Shown here: piece after piece, positions 5,671 through 22,412 of the stretch
How the letters are laid out: every line of letters starts with the position of its first letter
Position numbering within the stretch: the first letter of the stretch is position 1
Source: a virus
Reading direction: 5' to 3' (one strand)
Virus record (IMG/VR): IMGVR_UViG_3300012201_000001
Coordinates: 1-60,657 of that record
Length of the DNA: 60,657 bases
The notes under the pieces: generated by a model
The model's input: only the letters and a program-made list of their open reading frames with translations
Databases searched by the model: none
What the model was told of the DNA's origin: nothing
Position numbers and translations under genes: made by a program

Positions 5671-5942
5671 CACCATTCCTGGTACCAGTCCCACTTCGAG
5701 CGCGGGTTGTACGTGCTCAGCGCGTAGAGGCCGTGCTCGTCGACCCCGCCCTCGTGCCCATGCCAGTCCCCCATCTTGGCCGCCAGCTGGTGCAGGTCGC
5801 TCGTCCCGTAATGCTTCGCCATCTCCTCCAGGTCCTCGCCCTCCTCGTACTCTGGGTGGGGCTCGACCTCCGTGTTCTCGTCGTAGGGCTCTAGCTGCTT
5901 CTCCGGGTCCGGCCCCAGGACCCACACCAGGAAGTGACTCAT
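5670..5942 (-). CDS. Phage hypothetical protein with NPxSKWDWY motif (90 aa)
   Basis: Starts MSHFLVWVLGPDPEKQLEPY and ends with YNPRSKWDWYQEW. By eye both ends match a widespread phage family in which the last motif is normally followed by GGRW and a longer domain. Here translation stops right after WDWYQEW, so this is a short form or a C-terminal truncation. Function is unknown. Confidence 0.65.
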   Translation of the reverse strand: MSHFLVWVLGPDPEKQLEPYDENTEVEPHPEYEEGEDLEEMAKHYGTSDLHQLAAKMGDWHGHEGGVDEHGLYALSTYNPRSKWDWYQEW

Positions 5943-6205
5943 CGCAGCACCGCCAGCTCGCGCAGCGGCTCCAGGTATTGCTCCGCCGCCCCGACCAGCG
6001 AGTAGGTCACGGCCACGGGCGGGCCCGCGTCGACGTCGCGCCGCAGCAGCCCCGCCCGCTCCAGGTCGCGCAGCCGCTCGGAGAGGACGCGGTCGCTAAC
6101 GCCCTCGACGTGGGCCAGCAGCCAGTTGAACCGCCTGCCCTCACCGTCGAGCGCGAGCAGGATCTCCGGGGCCCAGCGCCTGCTGAGCAGCTCCAGGCCG
6201 GTCAT
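5939..6205 (-). CDS. HxlR-family winged-helix transcription regulator (88 aa)
   Basis: ATG at 6205 (ATGA overlap). LLSRRWAPEILLALDGEGRR followed by GVSDRVLSERLRDLERAGLL is the HxlR/MarR-like signature: recognition helix and wing for DNA binding. The usual length is 90-120 aa, so this is a compact version. It lies just downstream of the methyltransferase cluster and could control it or host genes; that link is inference. Confidence 0.8.
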   Translation of the reverse strand: MTGLELLSRRWAPEILLALDGEGRRFNWLLAHVEGVSDRVLSERLRDLERAGLLRRDVDAGPPVAVTYSLVGAAEQYLEPLRELAVLR

Positions 6206-6402
6206 CCCCGCTGCACGGCCTCGTCGACCGTGACGGCGGCGTACGAGCTCGGGTTCTGTCGACGGATCGTTTCGAGGACCCGCATCGCGTCCTCCGGGCT
6301 GTCGAACTCGAACCGGCCGATCTCCTGATCCTCCTTCTCCCCCTTCCGAGCGACGATGACCTGGTTGCCTACGACCGTGTAGAGGAAGGTGAACTTGGGC
6401 AT
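6202..6402 (-). CDS. Small hypothetical protein (66 aa)
   Basis: ATG at 6402 preceded by a strong CAGGAGGAG ribosome site, so this begins a translational unit after an 81-bp gap. Starts MPKFTFLYTVVGNQVIVARK, a beta-rich stretch. Its C-terminus VDEAVQRG is also the C-terminus of the protein at 22529-22735, encoded by the same 20 bases. Confidence 0.55.
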   Translation of the reverse strand: MPKFTFLYTVVGNQVIVARKGEKEDQEIGRFEFDSPEDAMRVLETIRRQNPSSYAAVTVDEAVQRG

Positions 6403-6483
6403 TCTCAGCTCCTCCTGCCGTGGTTAGTAGCGGGCCGAAGGATAGTAACCCCACGGGCCCGCGGTGGTCCACACCCCTTCCCT
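6403..6483 (-). promoter_or_regulatory. Intergenic leader with GATAGTAACC motif and hairpin
   Basis: Between the CmoA-like gene and the next gene. It holds GATAGTAACC (6441-6450), a 10-mer also found in the repeat region at 12111-12120, and a GC hairpin built on CCAC...GTGG (about 6451-6470). This may be an operator or attenuator; no clear promoter hexamers were seen. Confidence 0.35.
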
Positions 6484-7242
6484 TTACTTCAGCGCGACCC
6501 ATGCTGAGAAATTCATCCATCGCCAGAACACGTCGACCTCGCGAAAGCCCGCGTCGCGCAGCATGCGCTCGTTCATCGACGGCGGGACCGGGACCTGCAC
6601 GCCCTCCAGCGCCAGCCGCTTGCGGTCGATCTCCTCGCGCGTGTAGCCGTTGGCCGCCTTCATCGCGTGGTAGGTCTCGACCTGGAGCGCCTCCAGCGTC
6701 GCCCCCTCGCCGAGCACCTTCTCCACCAGGACCAGCGCCCCGTCCGGGAGCAAGGCGTCGTAGCACTTGCGGAGGATCCGCTGCCGGTAGTTGATCGGCG
6801 TGAACATCAGCGTCAGCACCGCCTGGACCAGTGACGCCTTGGCGTACGGGAAGTCGGTCCGCAGGTCCGCCTCGTGGAGCTGGATCACGCCCTGGCGGAT
6901 CCAGTCCGCGTAGCGCTCTTGGAATGCCAGCACCATCGGCTCCGAGGTCTCCACGCAGACGTAGCGCACGGTCGCCCCGAAGCGCTTGAGCAGCGGCACG
7001 ATGGCCTCCCCGCGCGAGGTCCCGAGGTCGACCACGTCCGTCCCCGGCTTGACGAACCAGGCCCCGACGTCGAACACCGCCCGGCGCATGACCTCGTACT
7101 GGGGGACGCTCCTCTCCAACATTTCGTCGAAGACATCGGTGACCGCGGCGTTGAATTCCCAGCTCGAGCCCATCGTCTCGTGGATGCCGACGTCGCGCCG
7201 CTCGTCCGGGTCCCTCGCGCGTTCTCCCTGCATGGGGTTCAT
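6484..7242 (-). CDS. CmoA-like carboxy-S-adenosylmethionine synthase / SAM-fold enzyme (252 aa)
   Basis: CmoA converts SAM plus prephenate to carboxy-SAM (CxSAM), used by bacteria for tRNA wobble-uridine modification. This protein follows E. coli CmoA block by block: RSVPQY (CmoA RSVPGY), FVKPGTDVVDLGTSRGEA (FVQPGTQVYDLGCSLGAA), PDGALVLVEK (PGGALVLSEK), KAANGYTREEIDRKR (KRANGYSELEISQKR) and a C-terminal NFSAWVALK (NFGSLVALK). The residue matching the CxSAM-carboxylate-binding Arg199 of E. coli CmoA is present (Arg209, in RKRLALEG). Length is the family norm. The ATG at 7242 overlaps the UDG-like gene by 4 bp, and a DNA cytosine methyltransferase follows upstream in the same unit, so the product may feed DNA rather than tRNA modification. 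An ordinary methyltransferase activity cannot be excluded. Confidence 0.85.
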   Translation of the reverse strand: MNPMQGERARDPDERRDVGIHETMGSSWEFNAAVTDVFDEMLERSVPQYEVMRRAVFDVGAWFVKPGTDVVDLGTSRGEAIVPLLKRFGATVRYVCVETSEPMVLAFQERYADWIRQGVIQLHEADLRTDFPYAKASLVQAVLTLMFTPINYRQRILRKCYDALLPDGALVLVEKVLGEGATLEALQVETYHAMKAANGYTREEIDRKRLALEGVQVPVPPSMNERMLRDAGFREVDVFWRWMNFSAWVALK

Positions 7243-7384
7243 CCTCGCCCTGATCGTGCTTCTGATCGCGCTCGGGACGGCCCTCGGCCTGATCTCGGGC
7301 GCTCACCTGCTGTGGTGGATGATCGCGCTGCTGGCGCTCGCGGTCCTGGTCGGCGGCTGGGCCGCGTTTCCCTGGCGTCGCTGA
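7232..7384 (+). CDS. Small membrane protein, antisense to the UDG-like gene (50 aa)
   Basis: ATG at 7232. The product starts MGFILALIVLLIALGTALGL and continues LLWWMIALLALAVLVGGW, giving two transmembrane helices with a WW pair between them and a basic end. It resembles short hydrophobic proteins (lmo0937-like, with a LWW motif) of Gram-positive bacteria. Nearly every third codon position is G or C, the genome's coding signature, whereas the overlapping minus frame lacks it. No clear ribosome site is seen, so expression is uncertain. If real, it is fully antisense to the UDG-like tail. Confidence 0.5.
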   Translation: MGFILALIVLLIALGTALGLISGAHLLWWMIALLALAVLVGGWAAFPWRR

Positions 7385-17065: not shown

Positions 17066-17301
17066 CAGAGGGTCAGCCTCAGCGGGATCGCTGCGATGGC
17101 CGCTGGCGACGGGGAGCGGGTCTCCCGAAGATCATGCTCGAACTCGGCCTGGTCGTCCTCGAGGTGGGCGGCGATCCGCGTGATCACGGCGATCACCGGA
17201 ACCCCGCGCTCCGTCCTGCCCTCCCAGACCCGGCCCGGGACCGAGACGCCGTTGCTGATCAGCTCGACCACGCGGTCCGTGCTCTCGATGGTGATCCTCA
17301 T
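17065..17301 (-). CDS. Small hypothetical protein (78 aa)
   Basis: ATG at 17301 (ATGA overlap with the Gp3-like gene). MRITIESTDRVVELISNGVS and RVWEGRTERGVPVIAVITRI suggest a small beta barrel; the family is reminiscent of phage proteins with VPxRVWEG motifs. Confidence 0.55.
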   Translation of the reverse strand: MRITIESTDRVVELISNGVSVPGRVWEGRTERGVPVIAVITRIAAHLEDDQAEFEHDLRETRSPSPAAIAAIPLRLTL

Positions 17302-18650
17302 GTCGACCCCTCCAACGGCGGCAGGCCGCGCAGCCGCTCGCGCAGCCAGTCGGCGTGCTCCACGCGCAGCTCGGCGAACTTGGAGACCTCGCTCCCCGTC
17401 TCCGCGTTCATCGCCCGGATCGCCGCCCGCAGGCGCTCCAGCGCCTCCCCTCGCCAGGGGTTGGCGACGGAGGAGAACGGACGCCCCGGATCCTCCAGCC
17501 CGCCCGCCAGCTCCTTCAGCTCGTCGAGCTGGGCGCGGACCAGGAAGGGGCCCGGCTCCGAAGGCTCGCCAGGCAGGCCGGGTTCGGCGGAGCGGCCCTC
17601 GGCGGGCTCGCGGGACTCCTGGTCCCCGACCGCCGCCTTGGCCGTCCTAGGGCCTCGCAGGTCCTCCGGCACCAGGTGCTCCGGAAGCAGCCCCGCCACC
17701 GAGTCCACGGTCAGCCCCAGCGGGCTCGCGTTCAGGCGCTTGAGCGTCTCCCGCTGCGGCTCCGAGAGGAAGACCTCGCTGAGCGGGATCGCCGCCCAGC
17801 GCTGGACCTCGCGGACGTCGAAGCGCAGGGCGCAGGTCCAGTGCACCGACTTGACGCCGCGGTAGGTGGTCGTCGCCTTGCGGACCAGGGTCAGCGGCAC
17901 CCCCGCCGTCCGCCCCGCCAGCGAGGCCACCTTGAGGTCGAAGTCTGACTGCAGGTCCTTGATGCTGTTCACCGACCCCGTCGCCAGCTCCATGATCCCC
18001 AGCCACTTGCAGTAGTCCGGGTGCGAGGGGTCGGTCGCCGGGTGGAGCAGGACCGCGCGCAGGATCGCCACCGCCTTGCACGACGCGTCGGGGTCGTGAT
18101 CGGCCGCCAGCATCTGCTTGGTCTTGCTCGGGTCCTGCGGGTCCGGCTGCTCGGTCAGGTGCAGGTACTTCGGGCAGTCGCGGCCCCAGCAGCGCACGCG
18201 GTAGCGCGCCTGGCCGGAGGTCGAGGGCAGCGGCTCCGCGGCCTGGCCGGTCGCCCTCTCGATCCGCACCGCCCATGCCTCCTCGGTCGTGACCGCGTAG
18301 TCCGGCGACTCCGCGCTGTAGCCGTGGCCCTTGCACTTGAGGCCGCGCTGGCTGCCGTAGGCGCGGTTGTTGAGGTTGAACACCAGCTCGTCGCCGTCGC
18401 GGGTCTTGGCGTCCCATTCCTGGTAGAGCATCATCCGCAGCGCCTTGGGCTCGTGGCCGTAGATCTCCTGCACGTCCTCGGGCGCCTCGTCGAGGACGAA
18501 GTAGTCCGTCTCCGTCGGGTAGGTGCCGCGCATCGGCTCGGAGCGCGCGGCGCGCGTCCTGCCCGCGGCGGTGTTCCTGACGCGGACGCCGAGCCGGACC
18601 CGAAAATCACGACCAATCCTTCTGGCCTCGGACAACTCTGCGATCGGCAT
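17298..18650 (-). CDS. Gp3-like (recombination-directionality-factor-like) protein (450 aa)
   Basis: The segment RVRLGVRV...TDYFVLDEAPEDVQEIYG, then RGLKCKGHGY and CPKYLHL, followed by GSVNSIKDLQSDFDL and AGVPLTLVRK, follows the order of the Gp3-like family. The family name comes from the phiC31 excision factor, but most members lie in replication modules and bind zinc. No integrase is present here, so a replication or recombination role is more likely than excision. The ATG at 18650 has AGGAGG nine bases upstream. Codons 4-16 use AT-ending synonymous choices unlike the rest, and the first 14 residues are duplicated at the start of the adjoining HNH gene (see findings). Confidence 0.65.
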   Translation of the reverse strand: MPIAELSEARRIGRDFRVRLGVRVRNTAAGRTRAARSEPMRGTYPTETDYFVLDEAPEDVQEIYGHEPKALRMMLYQEWDAKTRDGDELVFNLNNRAYGSQRGLKCKGHGYSAESPDYAVTTEEAWAVRIERATGQAAEPLPSTSGQARYRVRCWGRDCPKYLHLTEQPDPQDPSKTKQMLAADHDPDASCKAVAILRAVLLHPATDPSHPDYCKWLGIMELATGSVNSIKDLQSDFDLKVASLAGRTAGVPLTLVRKATTTYRGVKSVHWTCALRFDVREVQRWAAIPLSEVFLSEPQRETLKRLNASPLGLTVDSVAGLLPEHLVPEDLRGPRTAKAAVGDQESREPAEGRSAEPGLPGEPSEPGPFLVRAQLDELKELAGGLEDPGRPFSSVANPWRGEALERLRAAIRAMNAETGSEVSKFAELRVEHADWLRERLRGLPPLEGST

Positions 18651-19111
18651 CAGGCCGCCCTCCTGCGAACTCGGTAGCTTAGGCGACAGGTCCGGCACGA
18701 GCGATAACCGCGCCTGTCGACGTAGGTGTTCGTCTCGTCATAGGGATGCCCGCGGGGGCAATGCGTCCTGCTGAGATAGCGGGCTACGAGGACGTCCGGC
18801 CCCGGGCCACGCAGCACGTTCTCCCGGCGAGTGACGGGCTCTATGTGAAGCGGATTCACGCACCATCGATGTCGGCAGAGATGGTCAGCTTCTCGCCCTG
18901 CAGGGAACGCCCCGATCATCTCCTGATAGAGAACTCGATGAACTAGCTGCAGACTGCAGCCGAAACTGACCGTTGCATAGCCAGCGCTCTGATGGCCGCC
19001 GCTCCATTCCCAGCAGCCGAAGCTTGTCGGGCGGACTCTGGAGAGAATCGAGTCGACCGTGTTTCGAAAACGGCCTACGCGGCGCGCCTCGCTCAGCTCT
19101 GCGATGGGCAT
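18650..19111 (-). CDS. HNH homing endonuclease fused to the native start of the Gp3-like gene (153 aa)
   Basis: The first residues MPIAELSEARRVGR are the same, but for one Ile/Val, as those of the following gene. They are in the genome's usual GC-rich codons, while the neighbour's copy is recoded. After them comes a standard HNH endonuclease: FGCWEWSGGHQSAGYATVSF, then EADHLCRHRWCVNPLHIEPV and RRENVLRG, then a CPRGHPY...CRTC zinc tail. The stop shares one base with the next ATG (TGATG). The start at 19111 has an AAAGGAG ribosome site. It looks like a homing gene that captured the start of its target and brought a replacement start. Confidence 0.88.
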   Translation of the reverse strand: MPIAELSEARRVGRFRNTVDSILSRVRPTSFGCWEWSGGHQSAGYATVSFGCSLQLVHRVLYQEMIGAFPAGREADHLCRHRWCVNPLHIEPVTRRENVLRGPGPDVLVARYLSRTHCPRGHPYDETNTYVDRRGYRSCRTCRLSYRVRRRAA

Positions 19112-19179
19112 CGGTCATTCTCCTTTAGTTGTCGTGGTTGTCGTGGACTTTCGCGTTTTCGGCGACGCCCATGGCCGTT
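19112..19179 (-). promoter_or_regulatory. Leader with tandem GTCGTGG motifs
   Basis: GTCGTGGTT (19131-19139) and GTCGTGGAC (19140-19148) stand in tandem upstream of the HNH/Gp3-like pair. Read on the minus strand this is AACCACGAC, repeated ahead of other genes in 19.1-25.5 kb. Confidence 0.4.
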
Positions 19180-20325
19180 CTAGCTCTCGACTGATGGTTG
19201 GTATTCCTCCTTCGACATGCCGAATGTCCACGCGACTGCGCTTGCGCAATCCCGCAGGCCTGGATCGACTCTTATCAAATAGTTTTTCCAGGTCCCATCC
19301 GGCTCCTCGGTGCTATTCGTGACCTCGACAGCTACCAACGCCTCATCGTTAGGTTGCTCAACACGTAGCAGGCGGCGTCGCTTGCCGAGTTGGTCCTTGT
19401 CCTCGTGCACGATCTTGGCGTCGACTTCGGCCATGAAGCGATCCACGCCCATACGCTCAAGCATCACTCGGCGGACTTCGACGTTCGGCTCCTCAGTCAC
19501 GTGCTTGGCCGTAATCCAGTCCGGCCGGACGACCACGAAAGCCGGGACCATCACGCCATGCCAGAAATAGAGGTTCTCGATGTCCGACTCAAGGGCCGCG
19601 TACTTCTGGTGATGTAGACGGCGCATCCCGAGACGGTCGTCGCGCTCCACACTCACCTTCGGCTTCGCCACCCAGTAGAGCGTGTCGTCGGTCCAGTAGA
19701 GGAGCCATGCGCCAGCGACAAAGGCCTCAAACAGGGGTTTCGCCCAGCGATCGACCACCGGCTTACCGAGTTGGTCCGCACCGAAATGAGTCGTGACGAT
19801 CCACGACAGGTCCCAGCCGTACCACCACCACACTTGCAAACACCAGGCGGCGAACCTCTGCATCGACTCGCGGGCGTCGCGGGCGTCGAGGGCGTCGCGG
19901 GCGACGAGGGCGGCGCGGGCGACGCGGGCGGCGCGGGCGTCGAGGGCGTCGCGGGCGTCGCGGGCGTCGCGGGCGGCGAGGGCGTCGCGGGCGGCGAGGG
20001 CGGCGCGGGCGACGCGGGCGGCGCGGGCGGCGCGGGCGTCGAGGGCGTCGCGGGCGTCGCGGGCGTCGCGGGCGTCGAGGGCGGCGCGGGCGTCGCGGGC
20101 GGCGCGGGCGGCAGGCGACCGCTTGAACCATTCATCGAGAATGCTGTTCACGCTTCGCAATAGCGCAGGCTCCTCGTGGACCGACCAGCCCGGTCCTAGG
20201 CGTCGAACCTGCCGCTTGATACCCAAGGCGCTCAGGTAGCGAGCCAGGTGCCGCTCTACCCCAGCCTCATTGAGAGAGCTGGGGTAGTCACATGCGGCCT
20301 CGTAACGCTGTCGGTCAGTCGCCAC
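19180..20325 (-). CDS. DUF6745-like protein with Ala/Arg/Asp repeat domain (381 aa)
   Basis: The C-terminal half has the DUF6745 signature: FWHGVMVPAFVVVRPDWITA, VRRVMLERMGVDRFMAEV, NSTEEPDGTWKNYLIRVDP and AVAWTFGMSKEEYQPSVES. The domain is of unknown function and is often paired in bacteria with the protein encoded just upstream. Residues about 72-154 are an ARD/ARA tripeptide-type repeat (19866-20111) made of 9-bp units; all six frames are open there. GTG start at 20325 overlaps the upstream TAG by one base. Confidence 0.8.
   Translation of the reverse strand: MATDRQRYEAACDYPSSLNEAGVERHLARYLSALGIKRQVRRLGPGWSVHEEPALLRSVNSILDEWFKRSPAARAARDARAALDARDARDARDALDARAARAARVARAALAARDALAARDARDARDALDARAARVARAALVARDALDARDARESMQRFAAWCLQVWWWYGWDLSWIVTTHFGADQLGKPVVDRWAKPLFEAFVAGAWLLYWTDDTLYWVAKPKVSVERDDRLGMRRLHHQKYAALESDIENLYFWHGVMVPAFVVVRPDWITAKHVTEEPNVEVRRVMLERMGVDRFMAEVDAKIVHEDKDQLGKRRRLLRVEQPNDEALVAVEVTNSTEEPDGTWKNYLIRVDPGLRDCASAVAWTFGMSKEEYQPSVES
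19866..20111. repeat. Degenerate GC-rich 3/9-bp repeat encoding (A-R-[AD])n
   Basis: A run of about 245 bp made of variants of gcgggcgtc, gagggcgtc, gcgggcgac and gcgggcggc. It is a coding repeat in the DUF6745-like gene and could change length by replication slippage. Confidence 0.8.
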
Positions 20326-20638: not shown

Positions 20639-20953
20639 TCACGCTTGAATCCGGGTCGTCATTTCGAGTCTCGTTAGCGTCTCGCCGCCGCGATGCTTGA
20701 GTACCTTCGACCTCTTCGCCGTCGACTTGCGCGGCCGTCCGACCGGGCGCTCGAGCAGGCGGAACGACTCCACGTGGTCGCGCCTGAACAGCCACATGCG
20801 GCCGACCTTGCGGCCGGGCAGCCGCTTGGCGCGGAGCGCGCGCCGGGCGGCTGCCCGGTCGGCCCGGTCCACCTCCAGCGCCAGCTTGGCGACCTGCGAC
20901 TGCTGCAGCCGGAGCAGCGCCGCGACCTCGGCCGTGGTCATCTCTGAGCTCAC
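20639..20953 (-). CDS. MerR/excisionase-like helix-turn-helix DNA-binding protein (104 aa)
   Basis: MTTAEVAALLRLQQSQVAKL followed by LPGRKVGRMWLFRRDHVESF is a HTH_17-type DNA-binding fold with a wing that places Trp/Phe before Arg. A basic C-terminal tail (RPRKSTAKRSKV) follows. A GTG at 20953 has a strong AGGAGGT ribosome site, so I take that start, though an ATG at 20941 is possible. Such proteins are excisionases or transcription regulators. Confidence 0.75.
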   Translation of the reverse strand: MSSEMTTAEVAALLRLQQSQVAKLALEVDRADRAAARRALRAKRLPGRKVGRMWLFRRDHVESFRLLERPVGRPRKSTAKRSKVLKHRGGETLTRLEMTTRIQA

Positions 20954-21015
20954 CGGTTCACCTCCTCGGTCCTCGTGGTTAAACGCCCCGGAAACCCTCG
21001 CGCCGGACCGACGGA

Positions 21016-22412
21016 TTATAGGTGAACGCGGGGCCCGTGGGCGAGCTCTTTCTCCTCCACCGCGCGGTAGAACCGGGCGGGGTTGGGGAGAACCTGTTCC
21101 ACGCTCTGTTTCAAACCCAGCCCGTCCTGGAACGCGACCTTGGCGCGGTCCACGACGCGGTCGGGGAGGCGGCCGCGGAACGCCTCTCGGAGGACCGCCT
21201 TCGACCGCCCTCCGCGCTCCACGACGTCGCGCGGCAGCGAGAGCGCCAGCTCCACCAGCGGCCGGTGCAGGAAGGGGAGGCGGCACTCCACCCCGCTCGC
21301 CATGAAGACCTTGGTTGCAGCGGGCGAAGTTCTTGCGCGCCTGGTCCAGCACCAGGTCGCGGCGGTAGGGGTGCCAGCCCTTCTGCCGGACCCCGTGGTA
21401 GGCGAACCCGTACGAGGCCCACAGCTCGTCCGAGCCCTCGCCGCTGAACACGACCTTGAACCCGTCCTCGCACATCCGGCGCGCCAGCAGAAGGCACGGC
21501 CAGCCGATCTCGACCTGAGCCTTGTGCGACATCTCGATCACGCGCACCACCTCGGCCAGATCCTCTGGCGTCGGCGTCGGGACCTCGACCTCGCGCAGCT
21601 CGAGCCCCAGCTCGGCCGCCACCAGGCGCGCGCTCCGGAGGTCCTGCGAGCGCGGATCGTGGACCGCCGCGTAGCAGACCAGGCCCGGCATCTGCCTCGA
21701 CGCCAGGAGCGCGATGGCGGAGGAGTCCAGCCCCCCGGAGAGGAGCGAGCAGACGGGCACGTCGCTGATCAGGCGCTCCACCACCCCGGCCTCCAGCAGC
21801 TCGCCCACGCGCGCGGCCGCGGCCTCGAAGCTGATGCGCGGGTCGGGGGCGATGGGCGGCTCGTACCAGCGATGGCGCGTCGCCGGCCCCGTCCGGCGTC
21901 ATCGTCCAGCGTTCCCCCGGCCCCACGTCGACGACCTGGTCGACGCCGAGCGCGGCCAGGCCCTTGCGCTCCGACGCGAAGCAGCCTCGGCCGGCGCAGA
22001 GCGGGACCTCCCCGAAGCGGTCCCGCGCCAGGTAGAGCACGCTCCCGTCGCGCGACCAGGCGACCGCGAACATCCCCTCCAGCCGCGGCAGCGCGTCCGC
22101 TCCCCACTCGTCCAGCGCGGTCGCCAGGACCTCGGTGTCCCCAGTGGTCGTGAACTTCCGCCCCCGGCGCTCAAGGTCTCGCCGGACGCGGGCGTGGTTC
22201 CAGATCTCCCCGTTGAACACGATCCCCGTCCGCCCGCGGCGCATCGGCTGGTTGGAGCGCGCGTCCGGGTCCAGGATCGCCAGCCGGGTGTGCCCCAGCG
22301 TCAGGTCGCCGAGGACGGTCAGCCCGCGCGCGTCCGGACCCCGGTGGGCGAGCGCGTCCACCGCCTCGCCGAAGCGATCCGGGAGGCCGTAGGAGCCCAC
22401 GATCCCGCACAC
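21016..22412 (-). pseudogene. Asparagine synthetase (glutamine-hydrolysing), two frameshifts
   Basis: The reading frame starts at GTG 22412 as MCGIVGSYG with the Cys2 glutaminase nucleophile, then HRGPDARG, FNGEIWNH and SRDGSVLYLARDRFGE. At about 21870-21890 the frame must shift to continue with RWYEPPIAPDP and the ATP-pyrophosphatase loop LLSGGLDSSAIA. At about 21309-21316 an extra C (AACCAAGG in place of AACAAGG) shifts it again into VFMASGVECRLPFLH. Both are one-base insertions. The restored protein is about 464 residues, shorter than cellular AsnB. Either the gene is decaying or the assembly has two errors; the neighbours are intact. Confidence 0.8.

Follow-up and report, generated by a model that had tools for sequence, protein, structure and literature searches.

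An HNH nuclease gene in the viral DNA studied here (IMG/VR record IMGVR_UViG_3300012201_000001, 60,657 nucleotides, referred to as the window) very probably forms part of a mobile homing cassette that captured the native start of the adjoining Gp3-like gene and supplied this gene with a replacement start; homing and immunity are presumed for it. The locus comprises the following features:

19120..19125, minus strand: RBS-like AAGGAG, judged by sequence to be presumably the target's native site, now serving the HNH gene
19070..19111, minus strand: putative captured native Gp3-like start, codons 1–14, now HNH codons 1–14 (sequence, codon usage, and analogy to empty sites in two other systems)
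18650..19111, minus strand: HNH nuclease gene, 153 aa, HNH_3, phrog_826, with its start borrowed from the target gene
18658..18664, minus strand: RBS-like AGGAGGG within the 3' end of the HNH gene, a candidate site serving the Gp3-like gene
18600..18650, minus strand: replacement Gp3-like start, codons 1–17, silently diverged, with atypical codons
17298..18650, minus strand: target gene, Gp3-like (PF18897), recombination directionality factor-like, 450 aa

The HNH gene extends from an ATG at 19111 to a TGA stop at 18652–18650 and the Gp3-like gene from an ATG at 18650 to its end at 17298, the stop of the first overlapping the start of the second as TGATG. The window HNH protein matched Pfam HNH_3 (E = 5.5e-9) and phrog_826 (E = 3.3e-41). 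Residues D76-H77, C79, C84, N86, and H89, as well as C118, H122, C139, and C142, are all present and are invariant or nearly so across the family alignment (A3); the nuclease keeps the conserved catalytic and zinc positions. A group I intron or an intein was considered and rejected. Rfam gave no group I intron match at the locus (best E > 0.6), and the HNH ORF stops before the target start; the gene has its own start and its own stop, followed by a new start, and does not lie inside an intron or intein. In the Streptomyces phage Samy (L061), an HNH gene is located two genes upstream of a phiC31 gp3-type recombination directionality factor (RDF) gene, hence HNH genes near RDF-type genes are not unique to the window.

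The original prediction, made from the letters of the window, held that the HNH and Gp3-like genes begin with nearly the same 14 residues. Identity was found at 13 of these 14 residues and at 30 of the 42 bases, from the predicted starts at 19111 and 18650. The HNH N-terminus is MPIAELSEARRVGR, continuing with -FR, and the Gp3-like N-terminus is MPIAELSEARRIGR (MPIAELSEARRIGRDFR in a longer reading), so that the peptide match runs slightly past residue 14 (...GR-FR versus ...GRDFR). Among the 3580 ATG, GTG, and TTG positions on both strands of the window, the next-best start resembled the HNH N-terminus at only 6 of 13 residues. As no other start in the window comes near it, chance is excluded as the source of the shared peptide. 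It is also extremely improbable that the peptide is, if not a coincidence, a leader of this HNH family. Some HNH matches do align from query residue 1–5, but their N-termini are unrelated to MPIAELSEARR, and in each of the further cases described below the HNH gene matches the N-terminus of its own target, with no common leader. Occurrence of the peptide elsewhere in the HNH family had been set beforehand as a refutation; relatives from viral contigs, genomes, and cultured phages carry unrelated leaders, namely short and varied N-termini and never the window's peptide. Three Gp3-like relatives, in turn, have an N-terminus of the MxIxxL...GRIRLG type (MTILTLQRRLHESGRIRLG; VVPIANLHRRIPEAGRIRFG; MSPPIEDLH...GHIRLG). 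The absence of the peptide from the HNH relatives together with the similar N-terminus in the Gp3-like relatives indicates that the leader belongs to the target gene.

Codon usage differed between the two copies. Relative codon adaptiveness was 0.48 for HNH codons 1–14 and 0.38 for the HNH body, compared to 0.21 for Gp3-like codons 1–14 and 0.82 for Gp3-like codons 18 onward. GC3 values were 0.77 (HNH codons 1–14), 0.62 (Gp3-like codons 1–14), and 0.97 (Gp3-like codons 18 onward). Ranked among 14-codon stretches from other genes, the Gp3-like start fell in the lowest 1.6% and the HNH copy in the lowest 9.4%. Of the codon contrast that had been predicted, the untypical Gp3-like start was thus recovered, but the HNH copy is only moderately typical and contains GCA, GTA, and CGT. 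Codons 1–16 of the Gp3-like gene are atypical and usual usage is back at about codon 17, as had been anticipated. Judged by this shift in adaptiveness, the HNH copy would be the original start and the Gp3-like copy the newcomer. At the 13 identical residues, 7 codon differences were observed versus 5.9 expected from two independent draws from this genome's usage (P = 0.32). The two starts are saturated at silent positions and no more different than saturation, and the count was therefore rejected as proof of selected recoding. For the window alone, the order of the two copies is not beyond doubt, given the small sample and a difference count only at saturation. Phages, viral contigs, GTDB contigs, and 296 genomes belonging to one phylum yielded no uninterrupted relative of the Gp3-like gene in the window. 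A degenerate DNA pattern written for the N-terminal peptide that the two genes share had no match either, and the neighbouring exonuclease, TerL, and capsid genes used as queries retrieved no syntenic relative. As none was found in these collections, the order of events in the window is read from codon usage and from analogy.

In two other systems, empty sites compared at the sequence level identify the native copy. The first was found by scanning HNH relatives for an N-terminus in common with the next gene. In the IMG/VR contig IMGVR_UViG_3300037760_000080 (L033), the nuclease starts with MDLTDTTRLAAIIN followed by TYPGEEW, and the next gene starts with VDITEITRLAAVINTVRPDWP. The IMG/VR contigs L069 and L071 carry the target gene of L033 uninterrupted, so that they are empty where L033 is occupied. 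The first 42 nt of the L069/L071 gene are the nuclease start of L033 (42/42), and the sequence upstream of the first ATG is likewise identical (60/60 nt). The replacement start of L033 agrees with the native one at 30 of 48 positions, after which identity returns (111/120 downstream). It retains 10 of 14 residues and hence also carries amino acid changes. Native-start capture was upheld for this L033-type element, as the uninterrupted gene matches the HNH start and not the present start of the target. In L036, most of the nuclease is gone and both starts are retained; by its sequence, this looks like a decayed element that kept both starts as expected.

These alleles also speak to a local duplication, in which the Gp3-like 5' end doubled in place, an HNH gene inserted between the two copies, and silent drift then separated them. 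Such a history would lead to the same final layout, and the window has no empty allele to set against it. In L033, however, the captured copy equals the empty allele (42/42) and the other copy does not (30/48), with nearly identical flanks around them; drift in place would not alter one copy so fast amid conserved flanks. As the layout is moreover found at HNH genes much more often than with permuted flanks, we regard local duplication as improbable.

L033 (4669-4887) and L036 additionally contain a small cysteine-rich ORF (MDLTDELPDYRCCTLAPDHPGTC...), whose first five codons are native target codons and behind which the target start is found again as a fresh, exact copy. It is either a further, nested insertion or a gene that L069/L071 lost via recombination between 15-bp repeats.

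The second system comes from cultured phages. An HNH gene directly precedes a DNA methylase gene in the Gordonia phages Pollux, Floral, EMsquaredA, Marteena, and Matteo. The other relatives among the matches listed had no HNH gene under the match; two of them, Agueybana and Zirinka, were read, and in these empty alleles the methylase starts with MTLTLTDLFCGAGG. The HNH gene of Matteo starts with ATGACCTTGACCCTCACCGACCTC followed by CCAGAG (MTLTLTDL followed by PERIR). It agrees with the native start of Agueybana, the closest empty allele read, at 20 of 24 nt, the captured stretch being only 8 codons, and the upstream sequence is identical at 39 of 40 positions. The Matteo methylase restarts with GTGCTGACGTTAACTGACCTTTTCTG, followed by a gene body that is 93/100 identical. 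In the occupied alleles of Matteo and Pollux, the target carries a codon-shifted replacement start. Again, the uninterrupted methylase matches the HNH start rather than the target's present start. When 24 named phage HNH regions were taken, the start-sharing pattern occurred only in Pollux. As the pattern is present in cultured Gordonia phages, it can no longer be suspected to be an artefact of metagenome assembly. Furthermore, a single laboratory strain supports the growth of phages with either allele, which makes this a directly testable system. Two systems with empty alleles thus support the predicted insertion into a native gene, whose start would have been kept by the HNH gene, of an element carrying a start and a ribosome site.

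A survey of 180 distinct HNH loci with flanks was carried out with a score threshold of at least 48. A shared gene end was detected at 9 of the 180 loci, compared to 0 for permuted flanks and 1.8 for non-HNH intervals, and the matches of the latter consisted largely of exact or nearly exact repeats. Among the nine, L135 is unconvincing as a case. Besides the window and L033, inspection supported L103, L156, L183, L176, and L160 at 5' ends, as well as the mirror-image 3'-end cases L175, L020, and L084. The HNH gene was found in either orientation relative to the target. Replacement and remnant were 50–92% identical in protein and 56–69% in DNA. GC3 was closer to the gene body in the remnant than in the replacement in seven of the nine cases with a comparable body, the exceptions being L156 and L183. 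The proposed search for other HNH genes sharing their N-terminus with the next gene was thus productive (L033, Pollux/Matteo, and further loci), and the start-borrowing arrangement appears to recur in several unrelated phages, two of them with close insertion-free relatives.

L103 stems from a bacterial genome. Its HNH gene is antisense to the target, the native start stub spans about 35 codons, and a silently diverged replacement start is found on the target. In L175 (2100-2900), the HNH gene lies at the 3' end of a target resembling a Holliday junction resolvase; the replacement C-terminal end stands before the HNH gene, and the native C-terminal end, IIDWEVFKELIRDSDYE, lies just behind it, overlapping the start of the next gene. 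A search for empty sites of three of these loci gave distant homologs at best for L175 and nothing for L103 and L156. Not counted as cases were L085 (DUF5131 start, little divergence), L179, L135, and L054 (repeats), L210/L211 (paralogs), and low-complexity matches. The HNH gene of L085 starts with MTTTKIEW, and the next gene, with its DUF5131-like start (TKIEWTD), begins with MTNVNTKIEWTD in nearly the same codons; from its sequence, this is a possible further start capture. L160 and L135 have a similar stretch adjoining the HNH gene (HPSAHSFNH and HSSAHSFNH).

The duplication, the codon shift, and the fusion are matters of observation, as are the layout of every case and the history of the two systems with empty alleles; cleavage, homing, immunity, and the donor are what we infer. 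The cassette would consist of the nuclease gene, a ribosome site, and a copy, silently diverged, of the target's first ~17 codons, inserted at about codon 14–16 of the native Gp3-like gene. The native start left upstream would have become the start of the HNH ORF, placing translation of the nuclease under the target's own signals. With the carried start completing it, the target would stay functional and would be translated from that start and the ribosome site inside the 3' end of the nuclease gene. In co-infecting phages, the nuclease is expected to cut uninterrupted alleles near codons 14–16; the cassette would then be copied during repair, with one homology arm formed by the upstream sequence including the native start and the other by the gene body. 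With its native site interrupted at about codon 14 and a carried start that has diverged, the occupied allele is predicted to be uncut and thereby immune. Silent divergence would also prevent recombination between the two starts and hence deletion of the nuclease. The replacement was probably derived from a diverged orthologous gene of an earlier host phage.

To call this start recoded to be resistant, as the original prediction did, may be too strong; it may simply be the start of a diverged ortholog. Passive divergence takes the replacement to be the orthologous start of the previous host phage, co-converted with the element, with the recoding unselected and any immunity a by-product. It differs from the explanation given above solely in whether cleavage immunity shaped the replacement, and its chances come close to even without reaching it. 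The codon difference count, at saturation and not above, is as this reading expects, and the amino acid changes in the L033 replacement are those of an ortholog. On the other hand, in every case the replaced stretch is short and stops beside the site of insertion, as would be expected if a replacement persisted only around the cut site, and a donor ortholog was not found.

Introns and inteins allow homing nucleases to reside inside essential genes by splicing out. We lean slightly towards the broader view that phage HNH genes include widespread, unrecognised natural home-and-rescue cassettes, which carry a cleavage-resistant, silently rewritten 5' or 3' end of the target, need neither intron nor intein to home into essential genes, and may borrow the target's start. 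If so, homing nucleases could enter essential genes without splicing, using the first or last codons and a differently spelled spare end. Odd codon usage at gene ends adjoining HNH genes would thereby be explained. Annotation would be misled by such elements, since the HNH start and the target start both look ordinary.

The likeness to a mobile element at the fungal mitochondrial atp6 gene, which had been pointed out from the sequence, was confirmed insofar as the fungal 3'-end elements are the closest known kind. Mobile endonuclease ORFs are found at the 3' ends of mitochondrial atp6, atp9, cox2, and nad3 in Glomus and of atp6 in Allomyces macrogynus (PMC3630166), and an endonuclease ORF at the 3' ends of atp6 and cox2 in Phlebia radiata (PMC4019555). 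In these as in the phage elements, the endonuclease ORF sits at the target end, the gene end is doubled, and the joined end is foreign and diverged; the left-behind native end matches element-free relatives (PMC3630166, PMC4019555), as it does in L033 and the Gordonia phages. The gene end likewise occurs twice around the window HNH gene (13/14 residues, 30/42 bases). The fungal elements affect carboxy-terminal ends and encode LAGLIDADG or GIY-YIG nucleases in mitochondria, whereas the phage case involves an HNH nuclease at a 5' end, and only in the phage case is the native start reused to translate the nuclease. The phage element works like the fungal family and is not a member of it.

Free-standing phage HNH homing endonucleases include the T4 mob genes, the Skunavirus HNH, and the HNH_3 of ICP1, and the accessible parts of these reports give double-strand-break repair as the accepted model of their mobility (PMC2988022, PMC12724721, PMC10448857). 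According to the same parts, they share with the window an HNH_3 nuclease in its own ORF beside a conserved gene, and their patchy presence has its counterpart in the L033 and Gordonia elements; start capture with a replacement start is not described in the accessible text of these open phage homing nuclease papers (PMC2988022, PMC10448857, PMC12724721). The phage variant occurs mostly at 5' ends and resembles a natural home-and-rescue cassette. In the engineered home-and-rescue drive HomeR, the rescue copy is recoded to resist cutting. HomeR is Cas9-based and operates in insects, whereas the phage cassette is natural and replaces only ~8–35 codons of one gene end. Both combine a homing nuclease in an essential target gene with an encoded rescue, as far as the accessible part of the HomeR report describes it (PMC7968924).

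Other minus-strand genes of the window showed unusual features. The DUF6745-domain gene at 19180-20325 contains a long Ala-Arg-Asp repeat at 19883-20118 (ARDARDALDARAAR...). An asparagine-synthase-type gene at 20642-22412 is present in two frames, with the glutamine amidotransferase part at 21114-22412 and the synthase part at 20642-21808, likely due to a frameshift or a sequencing error. The HxlR-domain gene at 5942-7306 has a GC3 of 0.54, compared to 0.82–0.98 for the other genes measured, and is likely a recent import.
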